Shown here: piece by piece, positions 3,504 to 34,514 of the stretch
Position numbering within the stretch: position 1 is the first letter of the stretch
How the letters are laid out: each line of letters starts with the position of its first letter
Source of the DNA: a virus
DNA length: 36,765 nucleotides
IMG/VR virus record: IMGVR_UViG_3300042514_000228
Location: 1 to 36,765 of that record
Strand: one strand, 5' to 3'
Notes under the pieces: model-generated
What the model was told of the DNA's origin: nothing
What the model saw: the letters and a program-made list of their open reading frames with translations, nothing else
Databases searched by the model: none
Made by a program: the position numbers and the translations under genes

Positions 3504-5412
3504 AAATAGCTTTTCAGTCTTAAATTTTGCCGCTCACAAAGTACCTGAGTTCAAAGAACAACAGTCCAAAGATTGGATTTTGTACGGGACTAGCGAAGGA
3601 TGGGTAAACCAATACCCTGACTACCTACTTCACATTTACGACCGTTCTGCAAAGCATTACGCAATTGTGAACGGCAAAGTTGATTATGTTATTGGGCAAG
3701 GTTTGAGCGTTAACGAAAAGGGATTAAACACCGAGCAGATAGCGCGGTTAAATAAATTCATTTCAGAGCCAAACCCAAACCAAACTTTGGAGGACATTAT
3801 CCAAATGTGTTCTTTGGATTTGGAGATATTCGGAGGTTTTGCACTTGAGATTCTGTACGATAAAAAGGGTGGATACCAAATGTATCACGCGGAGTTTGCA
3901 AAGTACAGGGTAAGCAAAGACCAAAAAACCTATTACCATTGCAACGACTGGAAGAAAGCCAAACCCGAAACAATCGAACCTATCAAAGCGTTTGATTACA
4001 ACGAAAAAAGCGGCAAGCAGTTACTTTATATTAAAGCATACCATCCAAAGGCCGACTACTATCCTTTGCCGCCTTATTTGGGTGCAATCCCTTACATCGA
4101 ACTAGATAGCGAAATTGCGAACTTCCATCTTAACAGCGTTAAAAACGGCTTTGTTGCTGGCTTTATGTTTAACTTCTTCAATGGACAACCTACGGAGGAG
4201 GAGCAGGAAACCATCGAAGCCCGAATAGAATCTAAGTTTTGCGGCACGGATAACGCAAACCGCATACTTTTGAATTTTAACGATAGCAAAGAGCAAGCGG
4301 TGGAGGTTTTGCCGCTTGGTTCTAATGACTTTGATTCGCGATTTGACATTCTAAATAAGACCGTACAACAAGAGATATTCAGCGGCCATAGGGTAGTTGA
4401 CCCTGCGCTGTTTGGAATCAAAGAGGATGGGGTATTTGCCACACGTACGCAGGTTCGCGACAGTTACGAACTGTTCAAAAACACGTACGTTCGGGCAAGG
4501 CAGGACTTTATTATAAATGTGCTTAACGAATTGGCTGCATTGCAGGGCTTTGAGAAACGCATTCAGATTATACCAAGCGAACCAATTTCGGAGGGCTACA
4601 GCGAAGCTACTAAGGTAGCCGTTATGACTACTAATGAAATACGCGAAGCTGTAGGGTTGCCATCTTTGGACACCGCTCAAGTTAAGGAAGTTTTAAAATT
4701 AAAATCTGAAAGCGATAGCGAAGATTTAGTAGCTGAAGCATTCGCTCAAACAGGCTACTCACTAGACGAGTGGGAAATTGTAAAGCCAATTCGCAAGGTT
4801 CGCTTTAGAGATGAAAAAGACCAGTTAGCTTTTGAGGATAGGGTTATGAAATTTGGAGTTGAAGATGACCCGTTTTTGATGGGCATACTTGAGCAACTAA
4901 AACAGAACCCGTTGGTTACCTACGCAGGCATTGCTGAACTGTTAAGTGTAAGCATCGAAGAAATAGCCTTAGCAGTAAACGAATTAGTTGCACAGGGGCT
5001 TTTGACCGTTGGCACGCAATCGGTAGCAGGCGCAACGCAAATAGCTTACGAGGTTAGTACGGATGGCTTGCGCAAATTAACACAGGCCAAACCGTTAGGT
5101 GTGAGTTTTAAGATAGCATACCGTTACGGATTAAGCCAAGAGGCAGGCGGTCGTGGTATTGACCCTAACACTGGCGAATTATTACCAGCGCCCGAAGCCA
5201 TCATACCAACTACGCGAGAATTTTGCCGAAAAATGGTTCGCGAAAGTAATAAAAGAGTATGGACAAGTGAGCAAATCCAAGGGATAAGCATGGCCGAAGA
5301 TAGGAACGTGTGGATGCGTAGGGGTGGTTTTTGGACACGCAAAGGCACAAACGTAACCACAAGCTATTGCCGCCATGCGTGGGAAAGTGTTGTAATTAAA
5401 TCACGAGCATAA
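3496..5412 (+). CDS. Portal protein with C-terminal winged-helix-like and MuF-like segments
   Basis: This is a 638-residue protein using the ATG at 3496; the in-frame ATG at 3472 lies further inside the upstream gene and is less likely. Residues 1 to about 430 look like a phage portal, the ring at the head vertex through which DNA passes ('DWILYGTSEGWVNQYPDYLL', 'HYAIVNGKVDYVIGQGL', 'EIFGGFALEIL', 'SGHRVVDPALFGI'). Residues about 465-530 look like a winged helix ('NPLVTYAGIAELLSVSIEE', 'ALAVNELVAQGLLTV'). Residues about 570-638 resemble the end of MuF-type minor head proteins ('TTREFCRKM' at 572-580, 'GGFWTRKG', 'CRHAW' at 625-629). In many phages the portal and MuF proteins are separate genes, so this reads as a fusion. 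The next gene starts two bases after the stop. Confidence 0.82.
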   Translation: MGKNSFSVLNFAAHKVPEFKEQQSKDWILYGTSEGWVNQYPDYLLHIYDRSAKHYAIVNGKVDYVIGQGLSVNEKGLNTEQIARLNKFISEPNPNQTLEDIIQMCSLDLEIFGGFALEILYDKKGGYQMYHAEFAKYRVSKDQKTYYHCNDWKKAKPETIEPIKAFDYNEKSGKQLLYIKAYHPKADYYPLPPYLGAIPYIELDSEIANFHLNSVKNGFVAGFMFNFFNGQPTEEEQETIEARIESKFCGTDNANRILLNFNDSKEQAVEVLPLGSNDFDSRFDILNKTVQQEIFSGHRVVDPALFGIKEDGVFATRTQVRDSYELFKNTYVRARQDFIINVLNELAALQGFEKRIQIIPSEPISEGYSEATKVAVMTTNEIREAVGLPSLDTAQVKEVLKLKSESDSEDLVAEAFAQTGYSLDEWEIVKPIRKVRFRDEKDQLAFEDRVMKFGVEDDPFLMGILEQLKQNPLVTYAGIAELLSVSIEEIALAVNELVAQGLLTVGTQSVAGATQIAYEVSTDGLRKLTQAKPLGVSFKIAYRYGLSQEAGGRGIDPNTGELLPAPEAIIPTTREFCRKMVRESNKRVWTSEQIQGISMAEDRNVWMRRGGFWTRKGTNVTTSYCRHAWESVVIKSRA

Positions 5413-10952: not shown

Positions 10953-10989
10953 GGTTACAATTTGTAACCGACTCATTTTTTTATCTTTG
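10953..10989 (+). promoter_or_regulatory. Promoter with palindromic operator in the -33 region
   Basis: TTG (10962-10964), 17 bases, TATCTTTG (10982-10989) fits the Bacteroidetes promoter pattern. The -33 part lies inside a perfect inverted repeat, GGTTACAATTTGTAACC (10953-10969), with 8-bp arms around one base. A dimeric repressor bound here would cover the -33 element. This promoter drives unit B. Confidence 0.7.
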
Positions 10990-10993
10990 TATC

Positions 10994-11100
10994 AATCAAA
11001 CTTGGCATGCCCCTGATTTAAGCACACTTTGCCGAGTCTTTTCGACCCGTTGCTTTAGGTTCGTGATTCACACGGACGGCAACGGGTTTATTTTTATTTA
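10994..11100 (+). ncRNA. Candidate structured non-coding RNA, unit B
   Basis: This is a transcript of about 107 nt expected from the promoter at 10982. ACTTGGCA (11000-11007) pairs with TGCCGAGT (11030-11037; 8 bp, one G-U). The terminator hairpin pairs ACCCGTTGC (11045-11053) with GCAACGGGT (11079-11087), contains an inner hairpin GTTCGTG/CACGGAC (11059-11065 with 11071-11077), and is followed by a T-rich tract. The outer terminator arm is the same as in unit A, so the units may be related. No credible ORF is inside. Confidence 0.6.
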
Positions 11101-11185
11101 TTTTCGCTTTTGTAAGTTTTATGCTATTTATATAGAAAACGAATTGTACTTTTGTCCTATCAAATAACCACAAAAACAAACCACA
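11097..11185 (+). promoter_or_regulatory. Promoter/leader module, copy 1
   Basis: This is an 89-base module preceding a small gene and repeated at 17388-17477. It contains a 24-base block (11097-11120) identical to 17388-17411 and beginning TTTATTTTCGC. After a divergent stretch comes the -7 element TACTTTTG (11147-11154), and then a leader that matches the other copy at 25 of 31 positions, including the shared core CAAATAACCACAAA. The -7 to ATG distance is 31 bases in both. The upstream block lies near -44 to -20 relative to the -7 element and may be an activator or repressor site. Confidence 0.7.
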
Positions 11186-11400: not shown

Positions 11401-11664
11401 ATGACCACACTAACCCAACTTGAAACCGCGCTAATTGACACGCCAAACCTTAGCGAATTGGCAAAACTAAAAGGACAAATTGCAGCTGTAAGGTTGCAAG
11501 CCGAAACCTCCGCACACATCGAATGCGACAAAGTAACGCTGGGCGAACTTGCACGTGCTTTGCAAGTGGAAAGCCATTGGAACGGGCGCACGTATAGCCT
11601 AACGATTGAAAACGGGGCGCATTTTGTAATACTTCAAACGCCTGTAATTGTAAGCGCAAAATGA
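11401..11664 (+). CDS. Hypothetical protein
   Basis: This is an 87-residue protein beginning at an ATG with an AC-rich leader (AAACCAAACCACG). The first half is helical ('LIDTPNLSELAKLKGQIAAV'); the second half has 'VTLGELARALQVESHWNGRT' and a beta-rich end. No family is recognised. Its stop overlaps the next start (ATGA), so it is co-translated with the DnaA-IV-like protein and may work with it. The 68 bases before it hold no gene or clear hairpin. Confidence 0.5.
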   Translation: MTTLTQLETALIDTPNLSELAKLKGQIAAVRLQAETSAHIECDKVTLGELARALQVESHWNGRTYSLTIENGAHFVILQTPVIVSAK

Positions 11665-12032
11665 AAATGACAGCAGAACAACTGGCCGCCATAAAGCAAC
11701 GGCTAAGTGAGCGCAAATTCCTACCCGATGTAAGTGTTGAGGGGCTATGTATTGCCGCAATGCGAGTACATCAGATAGAATGGGAGCAGATAACAAGAAA
11801 GTCGAACCTTCCGCACGTTGTGAAATGTCGGGAACAAATAGCCTACGTTATCTACACCTACATCAACCAGTCTACGTACTTGGACATGGGTAAGTTGCTA
11901 AATAGAACCCATGCTACAATAATCCACAACGTAAGGCAAGCAAGGGCATACATATCAATTGAGCCAAAGTATAAGCATCAAATTGAAACAATAGTAAAGT
12001 TGGCAAAAGAATGGGAACAAGAGCAGAAATAA
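11661..12032 (+). CDS. DnaA domain IV-like DNA-binding protein
   Basis: This is a 123-residue protein whose C-terminal half resembles the DnaA DNA-binding domain. 'VVKCREQIAYVIYTYI' corresponds to the first helices ('R...R..A.yl'), 'YLDMGKLLNRTHATIIHNVR' corresponds to the signature with 'GRDHSTVLH', and another helix follows. In DnaA this domain reads 9-bp boxes at the replication origin. There is no AAA+ ATPase, so it would bind DNA without opening it. It lies upstream of an array of 9-mers at 12522-12761, which makes it a natural candidate to bind them. It is translationally coupled to both neighbours. Confidence 0.7.
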   Translation: MKMTAEQLAAIKQRLSERKFLPDVSVEGLCIAAMRVHQIEWEQITRKSNLPHVVKCREQIAYVIYTYINQSTYLDMGKLLNRTHATIIHNVRQARAYISIEPKYKHQIETIVKLAKEWEQEQK

Positions 12033-12512: not shown

Positions 12513-12761
12513 TGTAAAGTCTTTACAGTAGATTTTGGCAGCACTTTACAGTAACTTTATAGCATTGGCGCGGCTTTGAGAAATGTTTACTGTAAAATTT
12601 TACTGTAAAGTTGGATTATGAAAATAAAAAAGGCAAAACAAAAAATTCTAAAATTTTCAATTAGGTGTCAAATTTTACAGTAAAACCTTCTACATCCCGC
12701 ATAAACATTGATTTTTTAGTGTAAAGTAGGTGTAAAATTACTTTACAGTAGGTTTACAGTA
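12513..12761. repeat. Array of seven TTTACAGTA 9-mers (origin or operator candidate)
   Basis: TTTACAGTA occurs at 12522-12530, 12545-12553, 12674-12682, 12742-12750 and 12753-12761, and in inverse orientation (TACTGTAAA) at 12588-12596 and 12601-12609. Two larger dyads overlap it: TGTAAAGTCTTTACA at 12513-12527, and TGTAAAGTA/TACTTTACA at 12720-12728 with 12739-12747. The stretch between 12610 and 12720 is very A/T-rich. Clustering in a gene-free gap just before the primase-helicase genes suits an iteron-type replication origin; a multi-site operator for the promoter at 12791 is the alternative. Confidence 0.75.
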
Positions 12762-12768
12762 TATTTTT

Positions 12769-12798
12769 TTGTTTGAATCAAAATTATGTTTATATTTG
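12769..12798 (+). promoter_or_regulatory. Strong Bacteroidetes-type promoter for the replication operon
   Basis: TTG (12769-12771), a 19-base spacer, and TATATTTG (12791-12798) is the best consensus match in the window. The last 9-mer of the array ends only eight bases upstream, so a protein bound to the array could control it. Expected start of transcription is about 12803. Confidence 0.8.
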
Positions 12799-12802
12799 CA
12801 CC

Positions 12803-12949
12803 CGTTCGGAGTATCGCCCGAATCAAATACATGAAGCTAAAAAACAAACTTTACTAAAAAATCCTTCACGGGGCAACCTCCGCAAAGCCGTCTTCATGTG
12901 GCTTGCGTAGGGTCGACTGATAACCGATGCCCCGTGACGGTATTTTGTC
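12803..12949 (+). promoter_or_regulatory. Structured 5' leader with predicted pseudoknot
   Basis: This leader of about 147 nt has a nested set of helices. There is a 5' hairpin GTTCGG/CCGAAT (12804-12809 with 12818-12823). A closing stem pairs TCACGGGGC (12866-12874) with GCCCCGTGA (12929-12937), 9 bp. Inside it an 11-bp stem (CCT-CGCAA-GCC at 12877-12889 with GGC-TTGCG-AGG at 12900-12911) carries a 10-base loop, and eight bases of that loop, CTTCATGT (12892-12899), are exactly complementary to ACATGAAG at 12829-12836 upstream, giving a pseudoknot. A small TGAC/GTCA hairpin covers the base before and the first base of the ATG at 12950. A riboswitch, autoregulatory leader or processed ncRNA are all possible. 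Confidence 0.7.
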
Positions 12950-13495
12950 ATGAACAAGAAAACAATTAATGAAGAATTGGATGCTTTATTCTCGGAGTCT
13001 ATTTGGTTTGAGGATAAGGAACAAGCAAAAGCCAGCTTTAATGCTTTAATGAAGCTAGTAGATGAACTATCTAAAAGCCCACGCGATTATGAGTATTACG
13101 AAATTTTTGCAACAGCATTAGATAAAGAGCCTAAAGAAATAAAAAGGTTCAATAATCTTTTAGTGATTCAGTTAATTACTGGATTATGGCGCGAAAAATT
13201 AAAGCCGATTGAAATATGGAATCGTGCGTACAACTCTACTCAAATAACTACTCAAACATTTACCGATTGCAATATCATTACGGTAGATGTAACCGACACG
13301 GGATTTAAAGGCGGTGATGCTGGACATGGTTGCGTAGTAAAATTTTCAATTACAGACGTTGCTTCGACCTGTATGTATGTTAATGGTATGGAAGCAAGTT
13401 TTTTTGAACTTGAATTACGTGGTGATTCTGAAAGACGTACTTTTTTAGATGCGCTAAAGTTTGCAGTAGATATAATTGAAACAAACAACAAATGA
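12950..13495 (+). CDS. Hypothetical protein leading the replication operon
   Basis: This is a 181-residue protein behind the strong promoter and structured leader. The first half is helical and acidic ('NEELDALFSESIWFEDKEQA', 'ALMKLVDELSKSPRDYEYYE'). The second half is beta-rich with 'DVTDTGFKGGDAGHGCVVKF' and 'MEASFFELELRGDSERRTFL'. I recognise no family. The stop overlaps the primase start (ATGA), so the two are made together, and an accessory or regulatory role in replication is inferred from that. If the leader is autoregulatory, this product is the first candidate ligand. Confidence 0.55.
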   Translation: MNKKTINEELDALFSESIWFEDKEQAKASFNALMKLVDELSKSPRDYEYYEIFATALDKEPKEIKRFNNLLVIQLITGLWREKLKPIEIWNRAYNSTQITTQTFTDCNIITVDVTDTGFKGGDAGHGCVVKFSITDVASTCMYVNGMEASFFELELRGDSERRTFLDALKFAVDIIETNNK

Positions 13496-15762
13496 GCAAG
13501 CACATCAAATTAGAAAAGGGCAAGTCATTACTTGCTGCTGGGTATTCTTTACTTGTAGCAAGTGAGGACAAACTACCATGCCACAGTTGGAAAGCGTTAA
13601 TGACAACCCCGTGGACGGTTGCGGAGTTAGAAAAGAATATACAGAATCCTAAAGCGTTTCGATACGGCTATCCAACTGGATACAATGACATTTTAGTTAT
13701 TGATATTGATTTAAAGGTGCTGCCGATGGAATTACGGGCTGCATTCTTTACCGAGTTTATAGCTTTTGTACGGGACAATGTAGACGGGTTTGATAAAAAA
13801 GTAGCTGTACATAAGACTATGAATTTCGGGTATCATTTAACCTATAGAACGCGGTTAATGATGGGTAACGAAAAGATTGCAGTACCTGTACTAACGGGTT
13901 TAAAATCTGAAAGTAGTGGAAAAACACAAGCCTTAATTGAAAGCCGAGGGACTGGTGGTTATGCGTTACTTTACGATGAATGCACAAACGGATTAGACTA
14001 TACAGCTATCCAATACCTAAGCGATGAAGAACATAATACACTACTTGCTATTTGCAAGATGTATGATGAACGCGTGGAGGTGCAAGAAATTGAGCAACCA
14101 AAAAAAGACAAAGCAACTGGAGTAAGCCCTTGGCAAGATTACAACCAAAGGCATACGGTTTTTGATGTAGTTGGTGATGAATTTAAAGTGATAAGAAACC
14201 TTGCAAGTAAAACCGTAATAAAGCGACACGGGGCAATTTCCGCACATTCGGGCTACGTGTTTAAGGATAGCGGTTGCTTGTACTTATTTAGTACGGGAAC
14301 GGCATACCCTAACGAAAAATTACTAAGCCCTTTTGCATTATTTGCTTACAAATACCATAGCGGCAATATGAGTACAGCGGCTAAAGAGTTGTATGCAAGC
14401 GGTTATGGTGATAGGATTAAGTTACCACAGCCCGAAATAGCTAAAGTAGATAAGCCAGTAATTGAAAAGCTATCTTTTCCTTTAGATATTTATCCTACTG
14501 AAATTCAAAATTATTTAATAGAATGCAATAGAACATTAGATAGTTCAATAGATTACATGGGAGCTGGATTGCTTTGGATGCTATCTATTTTGGTAGGTAA
14601 TAGCATGAAGATACAAGTTAAAAAAGGGTGGGACGAATGCTGTACTATTTGGGTAACGGTAGTTGGTAAAGCTGGAGTTGGAAAGTCGCCATCAATAAAC
14701 AACGTAATTAGACCGCTAATCCAAGCCAACAGCCGAGAAATACGCGAGTATCAAAAACGATTTAGAGAGTGGGACGAATACGACAAACTAAGCAAAAAGG
14801 AAAAGGAACAACGCCCAGAGGTGCAATGCCCAATCAAAAAGCAGTTTATAGTTAACGATGTAACGCTTGAAGCATTGGTAGAATTGCATGAAGAAAATCC
14901 AAACGCGGTTGGAGTATTTAAGGACGAACTTGCAGGCTGGATTAAGGACATGAACAAATATCGAGCTGGTTCTGACTTGGAGTTTTGGCTTTCAACTTTT
15001 AGCAACCAACCAGCAGCATTAAACAGAAAGACGGTTAAAAACACTTACGTTCACAGCCCAATCATTCCTGTACTTGGTGGCATACAACCAGCTGTATTGA
15101 ATCAAATTTTTACAGACGAATATCGGGACAATGGATTTAGTGATAGGATGCTACTTTGCTATCCTGACATTCAAGTGGAAATGTATAATGATAATGAACT
15201 AAGCGAAGAATTAATAGACTGGTATCATAATTACATAGGGGAACTTCATGCGCATATAAAAAACAGCCTTATCGTATTTGATGAAGAACGAGAAATAAAA
15301 CCACATTTAATACCTATGGACAATGCTGCAAAAGCAGAATGGAAACGGATTAATAATAAGATTACTATAATGCAGAATAGCGATAATGAAAGCGAGTTCA
15401 CTAAGTCCATGCTACCAAAGCAAAAGACTTACGTTCCACGTTTTGCTTTACTATTATCTATTATTGATGCCTATGCAAATGGTGAAGAATTAACCCGACC
15501 TATTGACGCGGCTACTATGATAAAAGCCGAGCGATTATCTGACTACTTTATCACAATGAGTAAAAAGGTAAAAGTAGATAGTATGGCATACAACGTAATA
15601 CGCGAAGCGGCTAATGTCAAAGGAGCGGCAACACCTAAAGAACGATGCAAGCAAATGTGGAGGACTGACACCGACCTTAATAGAACGTCCGCAGCCGAGT
15701 TACTTGCGGTATCGCGCCAAACGATTATCAACTGGATTAAAGAGTTTGAGAATGCAGCTTAG
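13492..15762 (+). CDS. Primase-polymerase/DUF3987 helicase fusion
   Basis: This is a 756-residue replication protein. Residues 1 to about 200 look like a bifunctional primase/polymerase (archaeo-eukaryotic primase) domain: 'GYNDILVIDIDLK' places acidic D71 and D73, followed by 'GYHLTYRTR' and 'ESRGTGGYALL'. After a linker, a DUF3987-like ATPase has a Walker A motif 'GKAGVGKS' (392-399) and a Walker B-like 'VFKDELAGWI' about 90 residues later. The C-terminus has an HTH-like end ('SAAELLAVSRQTIINWIKEF'). Such proteins prime and unwind DNA at the phage fork. It lies just downstream of the 9-mer array and overlaps the helicase gene by 11 bases. Confidence 0.85.
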   Translation: MSKHIKLEKGKSLLAAGYSLLVASEDKLPCHSWKALMTTPWTVAELEKNIQNPKAFRYGYPTGYNDILVIDIDLKVLPMELRAAFFTEFIAFVRDNVDGFDKKVAVHKTMNFGYHLTYRTRLMMGNEKIAVPVLTGLKSESSGKTQALIESRGTGGYALLYDECTNGLDYTAIQYLSDEEHNTLLAICKMYDERVEVQEIEQPKKDKATGVSPWQDYNQRHTVFDVVGDEFKVIRNLASKTVIKRHGAISAHSGYVFKDSGCLYLFSTGTAYPNEKLLSPFALFAYKYHSGNMSTAAKELYASGYGDRIKLPQPEIAKVDKPVIEKLSFPLDIYPTEIQNYLIECNRTLDSSIDYMGAGLLWMLSILVGNSMKIQVKKGWDECCTIWVTVVGKAGVGKSPSINNVIRPLIQANSREIREYQKRFREWDEYDKLSKKEKEQRPEVQCPIKKQFIVNDVTLEALVELHEENPNAVGVFKDELAGWIKDMNKYRAGSDLEFWLSTFSNQPAALNRKTVKNTYVHSPIIPVLGGIQPAVLNQIFTDEYRDNGFSDRMLLCYPDIQVEMYNDNELSEELIDWYHNYIGELHAHIKNSLIVFDEEREIKPHLIPMDNAAKAEWKRINNKITIMQNSDNESEFTKSMLPKQKTYVPRFALLLSIIDAYANGEELTRPIDAATMIKAERLSDYFITMSKKVKVDSMAYNVIREAANVKGAATPKERCKQMWRTDTDLNRTSAAELLAVSRQTIINWIKEFENAA

Positions 15763-31638: not shown

Positions 31639-34514
31639 TAGGCACAGAGGTATTAGTAGAAGGGTACTTGCTAGACGTAGTATCGGGTGCAGACTTTTCG
31701 TTCAACTATGCGGTTAGTGATGTACGGGAACCCGACAAACGTCAAACCGAGTTCACCAAAACAATACGGTGCGCAGGAACGGCAAATAATAACACGCTAT
31801 TTGGTAACCTATTCGAGGCCGACATAGCTAATCTATACGATGCAAGCCTTCCAAATATAGGGGCAAATTTTAACCCCAACAAAAAGGCAAGCGTTCAAGT
31901 ATTGCACAACAGTTTGCCGCAATTAGACGGGTCGATGCAACTACGAAAGATTAGCATAACTGAAGGGCTAATTGAATACGAGGTTGTTTTTATAGGCAAG
32001 CTAATTGATATTTTTGGAGTATGGGGTGACCAACAATTAAACGGTCGAGATGATGCAGGCAAACGCATTATTGACATTAGCGACTTAAACCATAACCTTA
32101 CTGAAAGCGACCAATCGGCTACATGGTTTGCTCCCGTTGGTGAGGGTTATGTATATCCGTTAATTGACTACGGGCGAAATACTACGCTTGTTGACAATAG
32201 TGGAGTGCGTACTTACCCTGTACTTGACCTACGTCCTGCGCTATATGTAAAGGAATTGTGGAATAGAATTTTTGCCTATGCTGATGCAACCTATGAGGGT
32301 TCATTCTTTACAGATGGCACGTTTGAACGGTTATGCTTGCCGTGGGTTAGTGGCTTTGAAATATCTAGCGAAGATTTGCTATTGCGTGAGGTGCAAGCGA
32401 TAAGAACAACATCTTTTGAAATGTACTCTGGGCCAGCATTTGCCGCAGGAACATTGTACGCTATGGAGCAGGTTACTTTGGATGAAAGCAATCAATACTA
32501 TTTGCCTACAAGCCAAATAAACATTGCCAACAATAGCACCTACCAAATAAGCGGTTTTATGAACTTTTCATCAAAACAAAGAACCGCAGTTCCTGACCAA
32601 ACTGGATTTTTGCCGTTTGACGTTCGTTTGTTCGTGAATGGTGTGTTGATTAGTACAGTTACTTGTATCATAACAATTTCTGAAGCTGGCGACCCAATAG
32701 GAACAATGGTATATAGCGGTTCTGCATTTACATTTCCCGATGTAATACTTGACCAATATGATGTAGTTGAAGTTAGATATGGGGGCACAGGAGGTAACGC
32801 TGTGTCCGTTAATTACAGGGTGGATTTACTGCTAGGTTCATCGCTATCTATGACAGCGGTCAATACTGAATTGGCTTATGGTGACTTAGTGCGCATGAAT
32901 TTCGGGATGCCCGAAACAACTATCAAAGACTTCTTTTTGAGCATTTTAAAAATGTTCAATCTGTACATGACACCGAGCAAAACATTAGATAGGCATTACA
33001 TATTCCAAACCCGTAATGATTACTATGCGAGTGGTGTGCTACGTGATTGGACGTATAAGCTGGCACGCGATAAGCAGCTAAGCGTTACACCTATGGGTTT
33101 GCTTTCGGGTCGTGAGTACGTCTATACCTATTCAGAAGATGGCGACTATTACAACGAACGATTCCAAAGCAACTACGGAAAGGCATACGGGCATAGGACA
33201 CTAAACATTGACAACGACTTTGTGCCCGAAAAGAAGGAAACAAGCGTTGTGTTTAGTGGTACTCCGCTAGTAAATGATGGCATTAGTAGCCGTATCATTC
33301 CAAAGATATACGATGCAGACATAAGCGAGGGAGCAAAGCAAACAGATGCAAACATTCGCATTCTGTATTATGGTGGGATGTTGGATAGCTTTCCAAGTTG
33401 GTCGCATGAGATAGTTACAGGAACGGTTATTACTTACGATCAATATCCATACGCTGGGCACTGGGATAACCCGATAACCCCAACGCTAGACATAAATTGG
33501 GGGCTATCACAAGAGTATTACTATCAGGGGAACGGGGCTACTGGAACGGTGCAAGTAACCAACAACAACCTATTTAAGAAGTACCATGAAGCGCAGTTTT
33601 TGGAATTAGCAAGCAAGGATAGCAAGCTAATCACAGCGATGTTCTACTTGACTGAATTGGATATTCAGCAGTTGGACTTTCGCGACACCATACTAATTGA
33701 CCAAACCTACTACAGATTAAACAAGGTAATTGATTACAACCCTTTTAAAACAGGGCTTACCAAAGTAGAACTATTCAAAGCTGGCGACATTGTAATAGAT
33801 GAAAAGAAAAGCGCGGCAATGGGTAGTGGTAAGTCTTTGGGTAGTGGCAGGCTATTAGAACTTGCGCCACTTAACCCATCAAAAAGGCTACTAAACGGCA
33901 ACCAATTTGAGCCGTTCCAAGGTAAGGTGGTCGGTCGCGAAAACGTGGTAAGTCCAAACGCGGTCGGGTTCTTTGTGCAAGGTGATAATAACAGGGTAGG
34001 TGCAAGTAAGAACGTCACTCTAATCGGTTCTAATAACGTGGTAGCAGATGGCGTGGAGAACGTGACCGCTATCGGAGTGAGCAACCTTAACATTACCCAA
34101 AGCAATACTACAATAAATGGAGATGGGGGGGTTCAAGTGGCAACGCTCGAATTGACAAGCGCACAAATACTAGCACTAAATACAACGCCTGTTTCCTTTG
34201 GAATAACAGTTCCATCGGGATACTATGCTTGTCCTCTTTTCTGTCAATTTAGCGGTGATTTTAACACAGTATCATACGCAACTGCTACCACAATAACGGT
34301 ATACACTCAAGGTTCAGCAAGCCTTTTGTTTAGCGGTAATTTATTAGCCTTTGGAGTAGATACGTTTGTGGACATACCTAAAGTTTTTGCATCCGTTAAC
34401 AACGCTCAATTCTTAAACGGAAACATATTGGTGTCTGTTTCGGGGGCATCAAACCCAACAGCAGGCAACAGCACGGTTAAATTATACCTTACATACATAC
34501 TCGTTCAAATCTAA
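31635..34514 (+). CDS. Large tail-tip/baseplate-like structural protein
   Basis: This is a 959-residue protein. The N-terminal 150 residues ('VLVEGYLLDVVSGADFSFNY', 'TEFTKTIRCAGTANNNTLFG') and a long beta-rich body fit a tail hub or baseplate protein. The C-terminal about 250 residues change character. First there is a Gly/Asn-rich repeat-like run ('GFFVQGDNNRVG', 'VTLIGSNNVVADG', 'VTAIGVSNLNI') that may form a stacked beta structure. It is followed by a Ser/Thr-rich beta domain, possibly the host-facing tip. It overlaps its neighbour upstream by four bases and is followed directly by the tape measure gene. Confidence 0.6.
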   Translation: MIGTEVLVEGYLLDVVSGADFSFNYAVSDVREPDKRQTEFTKTIRCAGTANNNTLFGNLFEADIANLYDASLPNIGANFNPNKKASVQVLHNSLPQLDGSMQLRKISITEGLIEYEVVFIGKLIDIFGVWGDQQLNGRDDAGKRIIDISDLNHNLTESDQSATWFAPVGEGYVYPLIDYGRNTTLVDNSGVRTYPVLDLRPALYVKELWNRIFAYADATYEGSFFTDGTFERLCLPWVSGFEISSEDLLLREVQAIRTTSFEMYSGPAFAAGTLYAMEQVTLDESNQYYLPTSQINIANNSTYQISGFMNFSSKQRTAVPDQTGFLPFDVRLFVNGVLISTVTCIITISEAGDPIGTMVYSGSAFTFPDVILDQYDVVEVRYGGTGGNAVSVNYRVDLLLGSSLSMTAVNTELAYGDLVRMNFGMPETTIKDFFLSILKMFNLYMTPSKTLDRHYIFQTRNDYYASGVLRDWTYKLARDKQLSVTPMGLLSGREYVYTYSEDGDYYNERFQSNYGKAYGHRTLNIDNDFVPEKKETSVVFSGTPLVNDGISSRIIPKIYDADISEGAKQTDANIRILYYGGMLDSFPSWSHEIVTGTVITYDQYPYAGHWDNPITPTLDINWGLSQEYYYQGNGATGTVQVTNNNLFKKYHEAQFLELASKDSKLITAMFYLTELDIQQLDFRDTILIDQTYYRLNKVIDYNPFKTGLTKVELFKAGDIVIDEKKSAAMGSGKSLGSGRLLELAPLNPSKRLLNGNQFEPFQGKVVGRENVVSPNAVGFFVQGDNNRVGASKNVTLIGSNNVVADGVENVTAIGVSNLNITQSNTTINGDGGVQVATLELTSAQILALNTTPVSFGITVPSGYYACPLFCQFSGDFNTVSYATATTITVYTQGSASLLFSGNLLAFGVDTFVDIPKVFASVNNAQFLNGNILVSVSGASNPTAGNSTVKLYLTYILVQI

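Follow-up and report, generated by a model that had tools for sequence, protein, structure and literature searches.

What does a structured RNA do at the entry to a phage replication operon? The question is raised by a viral DNA of 36,765 nucleotides (IMG/VR record IMGVR_UViG_3300042514_000228, referred to below as the window), in which a leader RNA spanning positions 12803–12949 lies between a promoter match and the first gene of the replication operon. The promoter consensus behind this match and all other box calls (TTTG and the TAnnTTTG box) is the one which we take to be typical of Bacteroidota, and the window transcript would start at approximately 12803. The leader and the genes that follow it are listed in Table 1. 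The product of the first ORF matched no entry in Pfam or PHROG. Searching Rfam 15 gave no match above the gathering threshold in the window and none in the loci of 17 relatives (133,416 bases), and permissive Rfam scans of the window leader and of the leader of Flavobacterium phage 11b gave sub-threshold hits only. The predicted fold of the 150-nt leader had a z-score of −3.84, with 1 of 200 shuffles being as good.

Table 1. Features of the leader region and the downstream genes in the window.
Feature	Position	Strand	Basis
Promoter, Bacteroidota-type, TTTG-N19-TATATTTG (−33/−7)	12768..12798	+	Pattern match to the presumed consensus
5′ hairpin P1, stem TTCGG/CCGAA, 8-nt loop 12810–12817	12805..12822	+	Sequence, MFE; stem kept in L002
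Linker arm ACATGAAG, 5′ side of PK1	12829..12836	+	Compensatory replacement in L008, L130
Basal stem P2 of three-way junction, 12866–12874/12929–12937	12866..12937	+	Sequence, repeat search
Hairpin P3, 12877–12889/12900–12911, loop CTTCATGT (12892–12899) pairing with 12829–12836	12877..12911	+	Sequence, MFE
Hairpin P4, TCG/CGA, 12913–12915/12925–12927, loop TGATA 12918–12922	12913..12927	+	Sequence; loop can pair with TATCG 12812–12816 (PK2)
First gene of the operon, 181 aa	12950..13495	+	50% identical homologue in L010
DUF3987 DNA primase/helicase	13492..15762	+	PF13148 1.9e-54; PHROG DNA helicase and DNA polymerase/primase

Relatives were obtained by two primase searches of viral contigs, from which the best 80 of 116 and the best 80 of 504 were taken, with some contigs present in both. 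Leaders like that of the window, designated type A, were found in L002 (primase 94% identical to that of the window; 936 of 1,001 bases identical around the leader), L008 (primase 60% identical) and L130 (52%). An earlier note on this DNA had described a 9-bp stem enclosing an 11-bp stem with a 10-base apical loop, and direct reading found each of these at all of its positions. The outer stem, P2, pairs TCACGGGGC with GCCCCGTGA, and its arms extend to 12857–12875/12928–12946 at 84% in a repeat search; the inner stem, P3, has 11 pairs, one bulged A and one mismatch, with GTCTTCATGT as the apical loop (12890–12899). A third hairpin, P4, which that note did not contain, completes a three-way junction. 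Compensatory changes were observed in L002 in both P2 (G-C to A-U) and P3 (C-G to A-U), and the P4 stem is TCGG/CCGA in L002 and L008.

The note had also claimed that the apical loop is exactly complementary to an upstream segment, forming a loop-closing pseudoknot in the leader of a replication operon. The loop letters CTTCATGT are indeed the reverse complement of ACATGAAG, giving an arm-loop pairing of 8 bp in the window (PK1). PK1 was found in four leaders: the window and L002 share one sequence, L008 has GAGCAAG/CTTGCTC, and L130 has TGCAACTA/TGGTTGCA with one G-U pair. Among 20,000 shuffles of the linker, those as good numbered 9 for the window, 8 for L002, 95 for L008 and 439 for L130, and mismatched combinations of arm and loop among the window, L008 and L130 gave at most 4 pairs. 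Because the arm and loop of L008 and L130 still pair although their letters have been replaced entirely, in a compensatory manner, the pseudoknot withstood the comparison with homologous leaders, in which uncompensated changes had been named as evidence against it. As for the suggestion of a riboswitch or regulatory RNA, a regulatory RNA is likely, whereas the riboswitch found no support, no sequence core common to the leaders having been detected beyond an AGTA/GAA internal loop that recurs in 7 of 35 terminator hairpins.

A further putative contact, absent from the earlier note, was recognized between the loop of the 5′ hairpin and that of the last hairpin (PK2). It reads UAUCG/UGAUA in the window (12812–12816/12918–12922; 5 pairs including one G-U), UGACA/UGUCA in L002, UGACAG/CUGUCA in L008 and CGGCAA/UUGCCG in L130. 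Shuffles as good, of 20,000, were 2,390 for the window, where PK2 alone is not significant, 291 for L002, 72 for L008 and 175 for L130. For the window it is the relatives that argue for PK2, and since L002 and L008 have the same letters, the covariation lies between the window, L002/L008 and L130. It is not the arm-loop pairing of PK1 that is the more general element but contact between the loops of the 5′ and the last hairpin, which was found in some thirty leaders. None of the type A leaders has a strong U-tract; 3′ of the window's stem there is only TATTTTG, a weak one. The window leader, which has the position typical of the class (TAnnTTTG box, leader, first gene of the operon) and lacks the U-tract after the last hairpin, would thus be a type A relative of the kissing-terminator class and not a member of type B. 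A search of viral contigs for the type A pattern returned 25 stretches, of which only those in L005 and L115, both contigs already in the set, were judged real by eye.

Type B leaders consist of a promoter, a 5′ hairpin, a linker and an intrinsic terminator, with the first gene starting approximately 15 nt later, and the apical loop of the terminator is complementary over 6–8 bp to the loop of the 5′ hairpin. One of them occupies the place of the window leader in L010 (one contig with L004), the primase of which is 96% identical to that of the window. Its 5′ hairpin has the loop GTAGCAG, and its terminator-like hairpin has the loop CTGCTAC followed by seven T. DNA similarity between the window and L010 stops at 12807 and resumes at 13254, the neighbouring DNA being 87–90% identical; the two phages therefore differ in one block that comprises the leader and the 5′ part of ORF1. 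The L010 leader is also present in L006, whose sequence upstream of the promoter is different. The loops are GTAGCCG/CGGCTAC in L014 and L011, and the primase is the first gene after the L011 leader (3872–4001), which it follows immediately. In L095, the same pair of hairpins is joined by a different linker and stands before a different first gene, and no window-type primase was found in its 33,970-base record. The loop-flanking stems of L174, L175 and L181 are identical, with the loops being ACGCAC/GTGCGT, ATGCCG/CGGCAT and ATGCAG/CTGCAT, respectively. Searching viral contigs for the type B pattern gave 9 stretches, 6 of them real and 3 (L091, L096 and L097) judged to be chance; two hits in genome contigs had no promoter box and were both regarded as chance, and a profile search (A2) of genome contigs found nothing. 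Different kissing leaders at L157:1783 (CCGCCA/TGGCGG) and L169:1834 (CGTCCAC/GTGGACG) precede genes with the same N-terminus, that of L157 being a DUF3127 gene.

To what extent the loop complementarity is general was addressed with 5′ hairpins and terminators defined without regard to it, behind 115 promoter boxes. This blind test yielded 32 leaders (some boxes share a leader and some leaders are related), in which at least 6 Watson-Crick loop pairs occurred in 17 of the 32 matched combinations versus 17 of 992 mismatched ones, and none of 2,002 permutations reached the observed mean. Fewer than 6 pairs were found in 15 leaders, some of these being second boxes of one leader or mis-called loops. 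Behind 1,395 other boxes there were 49 such leaders, of which 2 reached 6 pairs (L004, i.e. L010, and L157:5509). An anchored scan gave scores of at least 28 for 17 of the 115 boxes, which lie within 1 kb upstream of a primase, 9 of the 1,395 other boxes and 10 of 2,300 shuffles. These two tests replaced an unanchored upstream scan, which discriminated poorly (score of at least 28 in 36 of 114 real versus 75 of 1,140 shuffled sequences) and was inflated by iteron repeats.

A stricter detector, which demands a run of four T, was applied to both strands of 171 loci (1,315,990 bases, including overlapping loci of one contig). It produced 56 hits, 36 of them non-redundant, and 27 of the latter follow a TAnnTTTG box. 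No hit was obtained in the window, in 449,534 strand-bases of 27 unrelated loci, a lenient control because mostly G+C-rich (median 62%), or in relatives shuffled in 500-base pieces (830,500 bases, one strand from 110 of the 171 loci). Two of the nine hits without a box, L199:1204 and L192:906, precede the same kind of gene and were kept; the other seven were treated as chance. These two, the 27 with a box and four from phages 11b, elemoA and tooticki9-1 constitute a curated set of 33 leaders. In all 33, an ORF of at least 40 codons starts 10–61 nt (median, 15) after the hairpin, the linker is 12–33 nt, and a mean of 6.1 T is present in the 8 nt following the hairpin, the detector itself demanding four. 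As judged from N-termini, 14 of the 33 leaders have the primase itself as their first ORF. Because the set was assembled around one primase family, its association with replication genes is partly built in; the first gene in L179 resembles a lipoprotein gene. In the primase clade L015–L085 (approximately 45% identity), no kissing leader was found in the upstream regions of L015, L016, L017, L029 and L052; several members have GTGTAAAC-type repeats upstream of the primase.

Nine comparisons of related leaders, including three among L174, L175 and L181 and with helices entered by hand, showed differences in 12 of 56 kissing pairs, 11 on both sides, 1 on one side and none broken. The absence of broken pairs is partly built in, since most leaders were found via loop complementarity, and the blind test is the unbiased one. 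Among 155 stem pairs in the same comparisons, 17 differed (5 on both sides, 8 on one side and 4 broken); the idea that loops evolve faster than stems was dropped, the difference not being significant (p 0.07).

Cultured phages carry such leaders as well, and 9 of 17 named records or regions scanned with the detector had hits. In Flavobacterium phage 11b, the hit at 33634 (CGGGCAGG/CCTGCCCG) is followed directly by gp62 (start 33738) and then by gp63, which matches elemo phage genes with the annotation 'replication protein'. In elemoA 1-9A, TGAGAGC/GCTCTCA precedes a small ORF followed by replication-protein/primase genes. Phages tooticki9-1, sniff9-2, lillamy9-3, hemulen6-1 and stinky9-1 have one common leader, GTGAGACG/CGTCTCAC (six pairs reported by the detector); downstream of it come a small ORF, a relative of gp63 and a primase. 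In four of these five phages, an endonuclease gene is likewise preceded by a leader, GTCGTCG/CGACGAC. Two further phages are not represented in the curated set. In Croceibacter phage P2559S (L225), GTGCAG/CTGCAC at 33914 precedes gp48, annotated as hypothetical. The annotated start of this gene (33955) falls within the hairpin predicted as terminator, and translation more probably begins at the in-frame ATG at 34000. In Flavobacterium phage FCL-2, CATCCAC/GTGGATG at 37487 precedes gp54 (start 37596; annotated as hypothetical), and a second hit at 1595, inside a coding gene, is probably chance. PMC8092290 was set aside as a source of FCL-2 transcripts, the RNA in the part of that paper available to us being from bacteria grown without phage. 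The detector gave no hit in phi38:1 (31 kb of 72 kb), P12024S, B124-14 and 6H, or in the scanned regions of phi13:2, phi19:3, CRP6 and LoVEphage. By eye, phi13:2 and phi19:3 have a gp63 relative preceded by CTCTCAC/GTGAGAG, the 5′ hairpin being weak.

We consider it somewhat more probable than an even chance that the window leader belongs to a class of 5′ leaders of phage operons whose type B members act as conditional terminators (attenuators) set by self-complementary loops. Judging from the sequences, the operons would be mostly replication operons, in a set centred on primases, and the hosts, where named, Bacteroidota. Kissing in these leaders would take place between the 5′ hairpin loop and the apical loop of the hairpin nearest the first gene. 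In type B, RNA polymerase would either stop after approximately 90–100 nt or continue into the operon. The apical loop would emerge before the 3′ arm of the terminator exists and hence be free to pair with the 5′ loop, and this pairing would compete with, or strain, closure of the terminator, thereby deciding on read-through. The loop letters could vary freely if both sides change together, so that each leader would be specific to itself. Type A would add a hairpin whose loop pairs with the linker; because of the weak U-tract, such a leader could as well control translation or mRNA stability as terminate transcription.

The promoter match, the hairpins, the complementarity and covariation of the loops, the terminator features and the adjacency to the first gene are shown by comparison of sequences, and for type B, in which the last hairpin has the form of an intrinsic terminator, the strong hairpin, the U-tract and a gene start approximately 15 nt on make attenuation of transcription the natural reading. 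From these we infer termination in vivo, a switching of transcription and a signal that sets the balance. That the window has type A where L010, with a 96% identical primase, has type B was counted in favour of this explanation; counted against the attenuator were the type A leaders without a strong U-tract, the lack of detector hits in the window and the 8 of 17 named records without a hit. When the transcript was cut before the 3′ arm of the terminator, the predicted fold contained at least 4 loop-loop pairs in 27 of the 33 curated leaders and lacked the 5′ hairpin in 29, this hairpin being present in the full-transcript fold of 32; in the model, therefore, the loops can pair at an early stage, before the terminator takes effect. 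The energy model excludes pseudoknots and is silent on whether kissing helps or hinders termination. With low confidence, the likelier sign is that kissing would favour read-through over termination. For the similar layout of the fhsA motif, such pairing could prevent termination according to its authors, in the part of their paper available (PMC11109978). Geometry of linker and stack was uninformative as a discriminator: the reach of the linker is about the stacked length, exceeding it in 27 of 33, with no correlation (rho −0.15).

It is rather unlikely that the leaders are structural mRNA elements only, in which the kissed 5′ end blocks decay or insulates the start region and the U-tract is no terminator in vivo. 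Such a role would fit the type A leaders without a strong U-tract and the placing of the structure between the predicted 5′ end and the AUG; the type B hairpins, however, resemble intrinsic terminators in the T content given above. Translation of T4 gene 32 is repressed by protein binding to its leader, and a phage or host protein, e.g. the first gene product or an ssDNA-binding protein, may similarly recognize the kissed structure and repress translation. The RNA is compact and near the start codon, and an AGTA-stem-loop-stem-GAA internal loop, presumably resembling bulged-G (loop E) motifs, recurs in 7 of 35 terminator hairpins (three of them relatives) versus 4 of 7,000 mononucleotide shuffles. 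We regard protein binding as quite unlikely, as the first genes differ among phages of one leader type and no sequence common to all leaders was seen.

Pseudoknotted leaders before genes also bring riboswitches to mind. According to the accessible text of PMC6478431, HMP-PP (thiS) riboswitches likewise are compact switches with the aptamer embedded in an intrinsic terminator and with a possible pseudoknot; their loop is well conserved and they have a ligand, whereas in the phage leaders the pairing alone is conserved. A small-molecule riboswitch is very unlikely here, since no conserved ligand core was seen by eye or in helix counts, the loops and many stems vary, Rfam gave no match in the window and the 17 relatives' loci, and the genes are phage genes, often for replication. 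The fhsA motif (WRC-63-1) is given in the available part of PMC11109978 as a weak riboswitch candidate associated with formate-tetrahydrofolate ligase in Leptotrichia and environmental sequences; the present leaders differ from it in belonging to phage operons and in having loops of many sequences.

Control by complementary RNA is well known in replication systems. The attenuator of Staphylococcus plasmid pT181 controls replication. Like the type B leaders, the pT181 rep attenuator has a 5′ hairpin with a specificity loop, an intrinsic terminator in the 5′ UTR and a changeable kissing-loop specificity; it relies on a second RNA, the antisense RNA, and on an antiterminator sequence by which the terminator stem is sequestered (both from the accessible part of PMC4878617). 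The phage leaders, in contrast, carry both partners in one RNA, the 5′ loop being complementary to the apical loop of the terminator itself. Of the systems compared, the pT181 attenuator is the closest working analogue, but as described in that part it needs the antisense RNA. No TAnnTTTG box, the one promoter type searched for, was found on the minus strand of 12803–13070 in the window, such antisense boxes occur in 4 of the 33 curated leaders, and the basal arm of the terminator was at least 75% paired in the cut transcript, as for an antiterminator of the pT181 type, in 4 of these 33.

The P4 CI and P1 c4 RNAs are trans-acting immunity RNAs of temperate elements; they too involve complementary segments of a phage operon leader, for P4 that of the primase operon. 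The c4 antisense RNA is listed in the accessible part of PMC2864571. The present leaders differ from these in that Rfam, which holds c4, gave no match and in that they recur, in several phages, before more than one operon. Leaders of IncI/IncB plasmid rep genes contain a pseudoknot between a hairpin loop and a distant segment that controls the replication gene, acting on translation together with an antisense RNA and a leader peptide. A possible leader peptide from an ATG inside the pseudoknot arm (MKLKNKLY-stop in the window, MKPKNKPY-stop in L002) was without counterpart in the leaders of L008 and L010, a difference from the IncI/IncB case, and was rejected as a general feature. No description of a leader like the present ones was found in the titles, abstract openings and passages searched, preprints and many subscription papers lying outside this scope.

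Working in the manner of such systems, the leaders might exert RNA-based dosage or superinfection control in trans: the short terminated leader would bind, via its loops, nascent leaders that match it in specificity and so shut off the operon, and turnover of the loops would create new specificities. The primase operon context, the self-complementary, changing loops, the related phages L174, L175 and L181 with the same flanking stems and different loops, and the block-wise difference between the window and L010 are consistent with it. We nevertheless find it unlikely: a search of 27 records, the window among them, found no tyrosine integrase domain (PF00589; control, 14 of 14), so that prophage immunity is improbable as far as this type of integrase and records that are in several cases fragments can tell; several phages (L157, L190, L192, L199 and tooticki9-1) have two leaders with different loops; antisense boxes are few, with none in the window leader; and the rate of change in kissing pairs is not significantly above that in stems. 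A variant is doubtful to us as well, namely that the terminated leader is both product and repressor in a one-RNA sensor of copy number. At low phage copy number, the loops would pair within one molecule and polymerase would read through; as genomes multiply, free leaders would accumulate and bind, in trans, newly emerging leaders of their own loop type, and termination would be restored. Loop types would then define 'incompatibility groups' among phages without an antisense promoter or a repressor protein.

The covarying knots, often placed in a stop signal before the first gene, suggest a kind of phage gene on/off switch that has not been described. If the attenuator reading is correct, Bacteroidota phages would have in common a small RNA switch, easy to re-specify, that guards the start of replication operons and of others, giving a testable mechanism for early-gene control in these phages and a natural attenuator family of many loop specificities with sensor and actuator in one RNA. 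Annotation based on sequence misses such leaders because their letters are not conserved; the self-complementary loops provide a simple signature for finding more of them, and cultured carriers, e.g. Flavobacterium phage 11b, elemoA and the LMO phages, exist.

Several minor observations were made in the window. Leader positions 12867–12884 recur with 2 mismatches in its primase gene (14227–14244) and exactly in that of L004 (576–593, minus strand); this 18-nt repeat, CACGGGGCAACCTCCGCA, is a probable coincidence, as the L002 leader differs and its primase keeps only 11 nt. At 10961–11110, another TTTG/TAnnTTTG box is followed by a predicted hairpin whose stem is G+C-rich and whose tail is rich in T, possibly a second short structured RNA or attenuator; loop complementarity was not seen there by eye, and the detector gave no hit. 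Upstream of the leader, at 12521–12766, are iteron-like CTTTACAGTA repeats with inverted copies, and a DnaA-C-like gene is located at 11661–12032 (PF08299, E 5.7e-06, below the curated cut-off); together, these could be a replication origin region.
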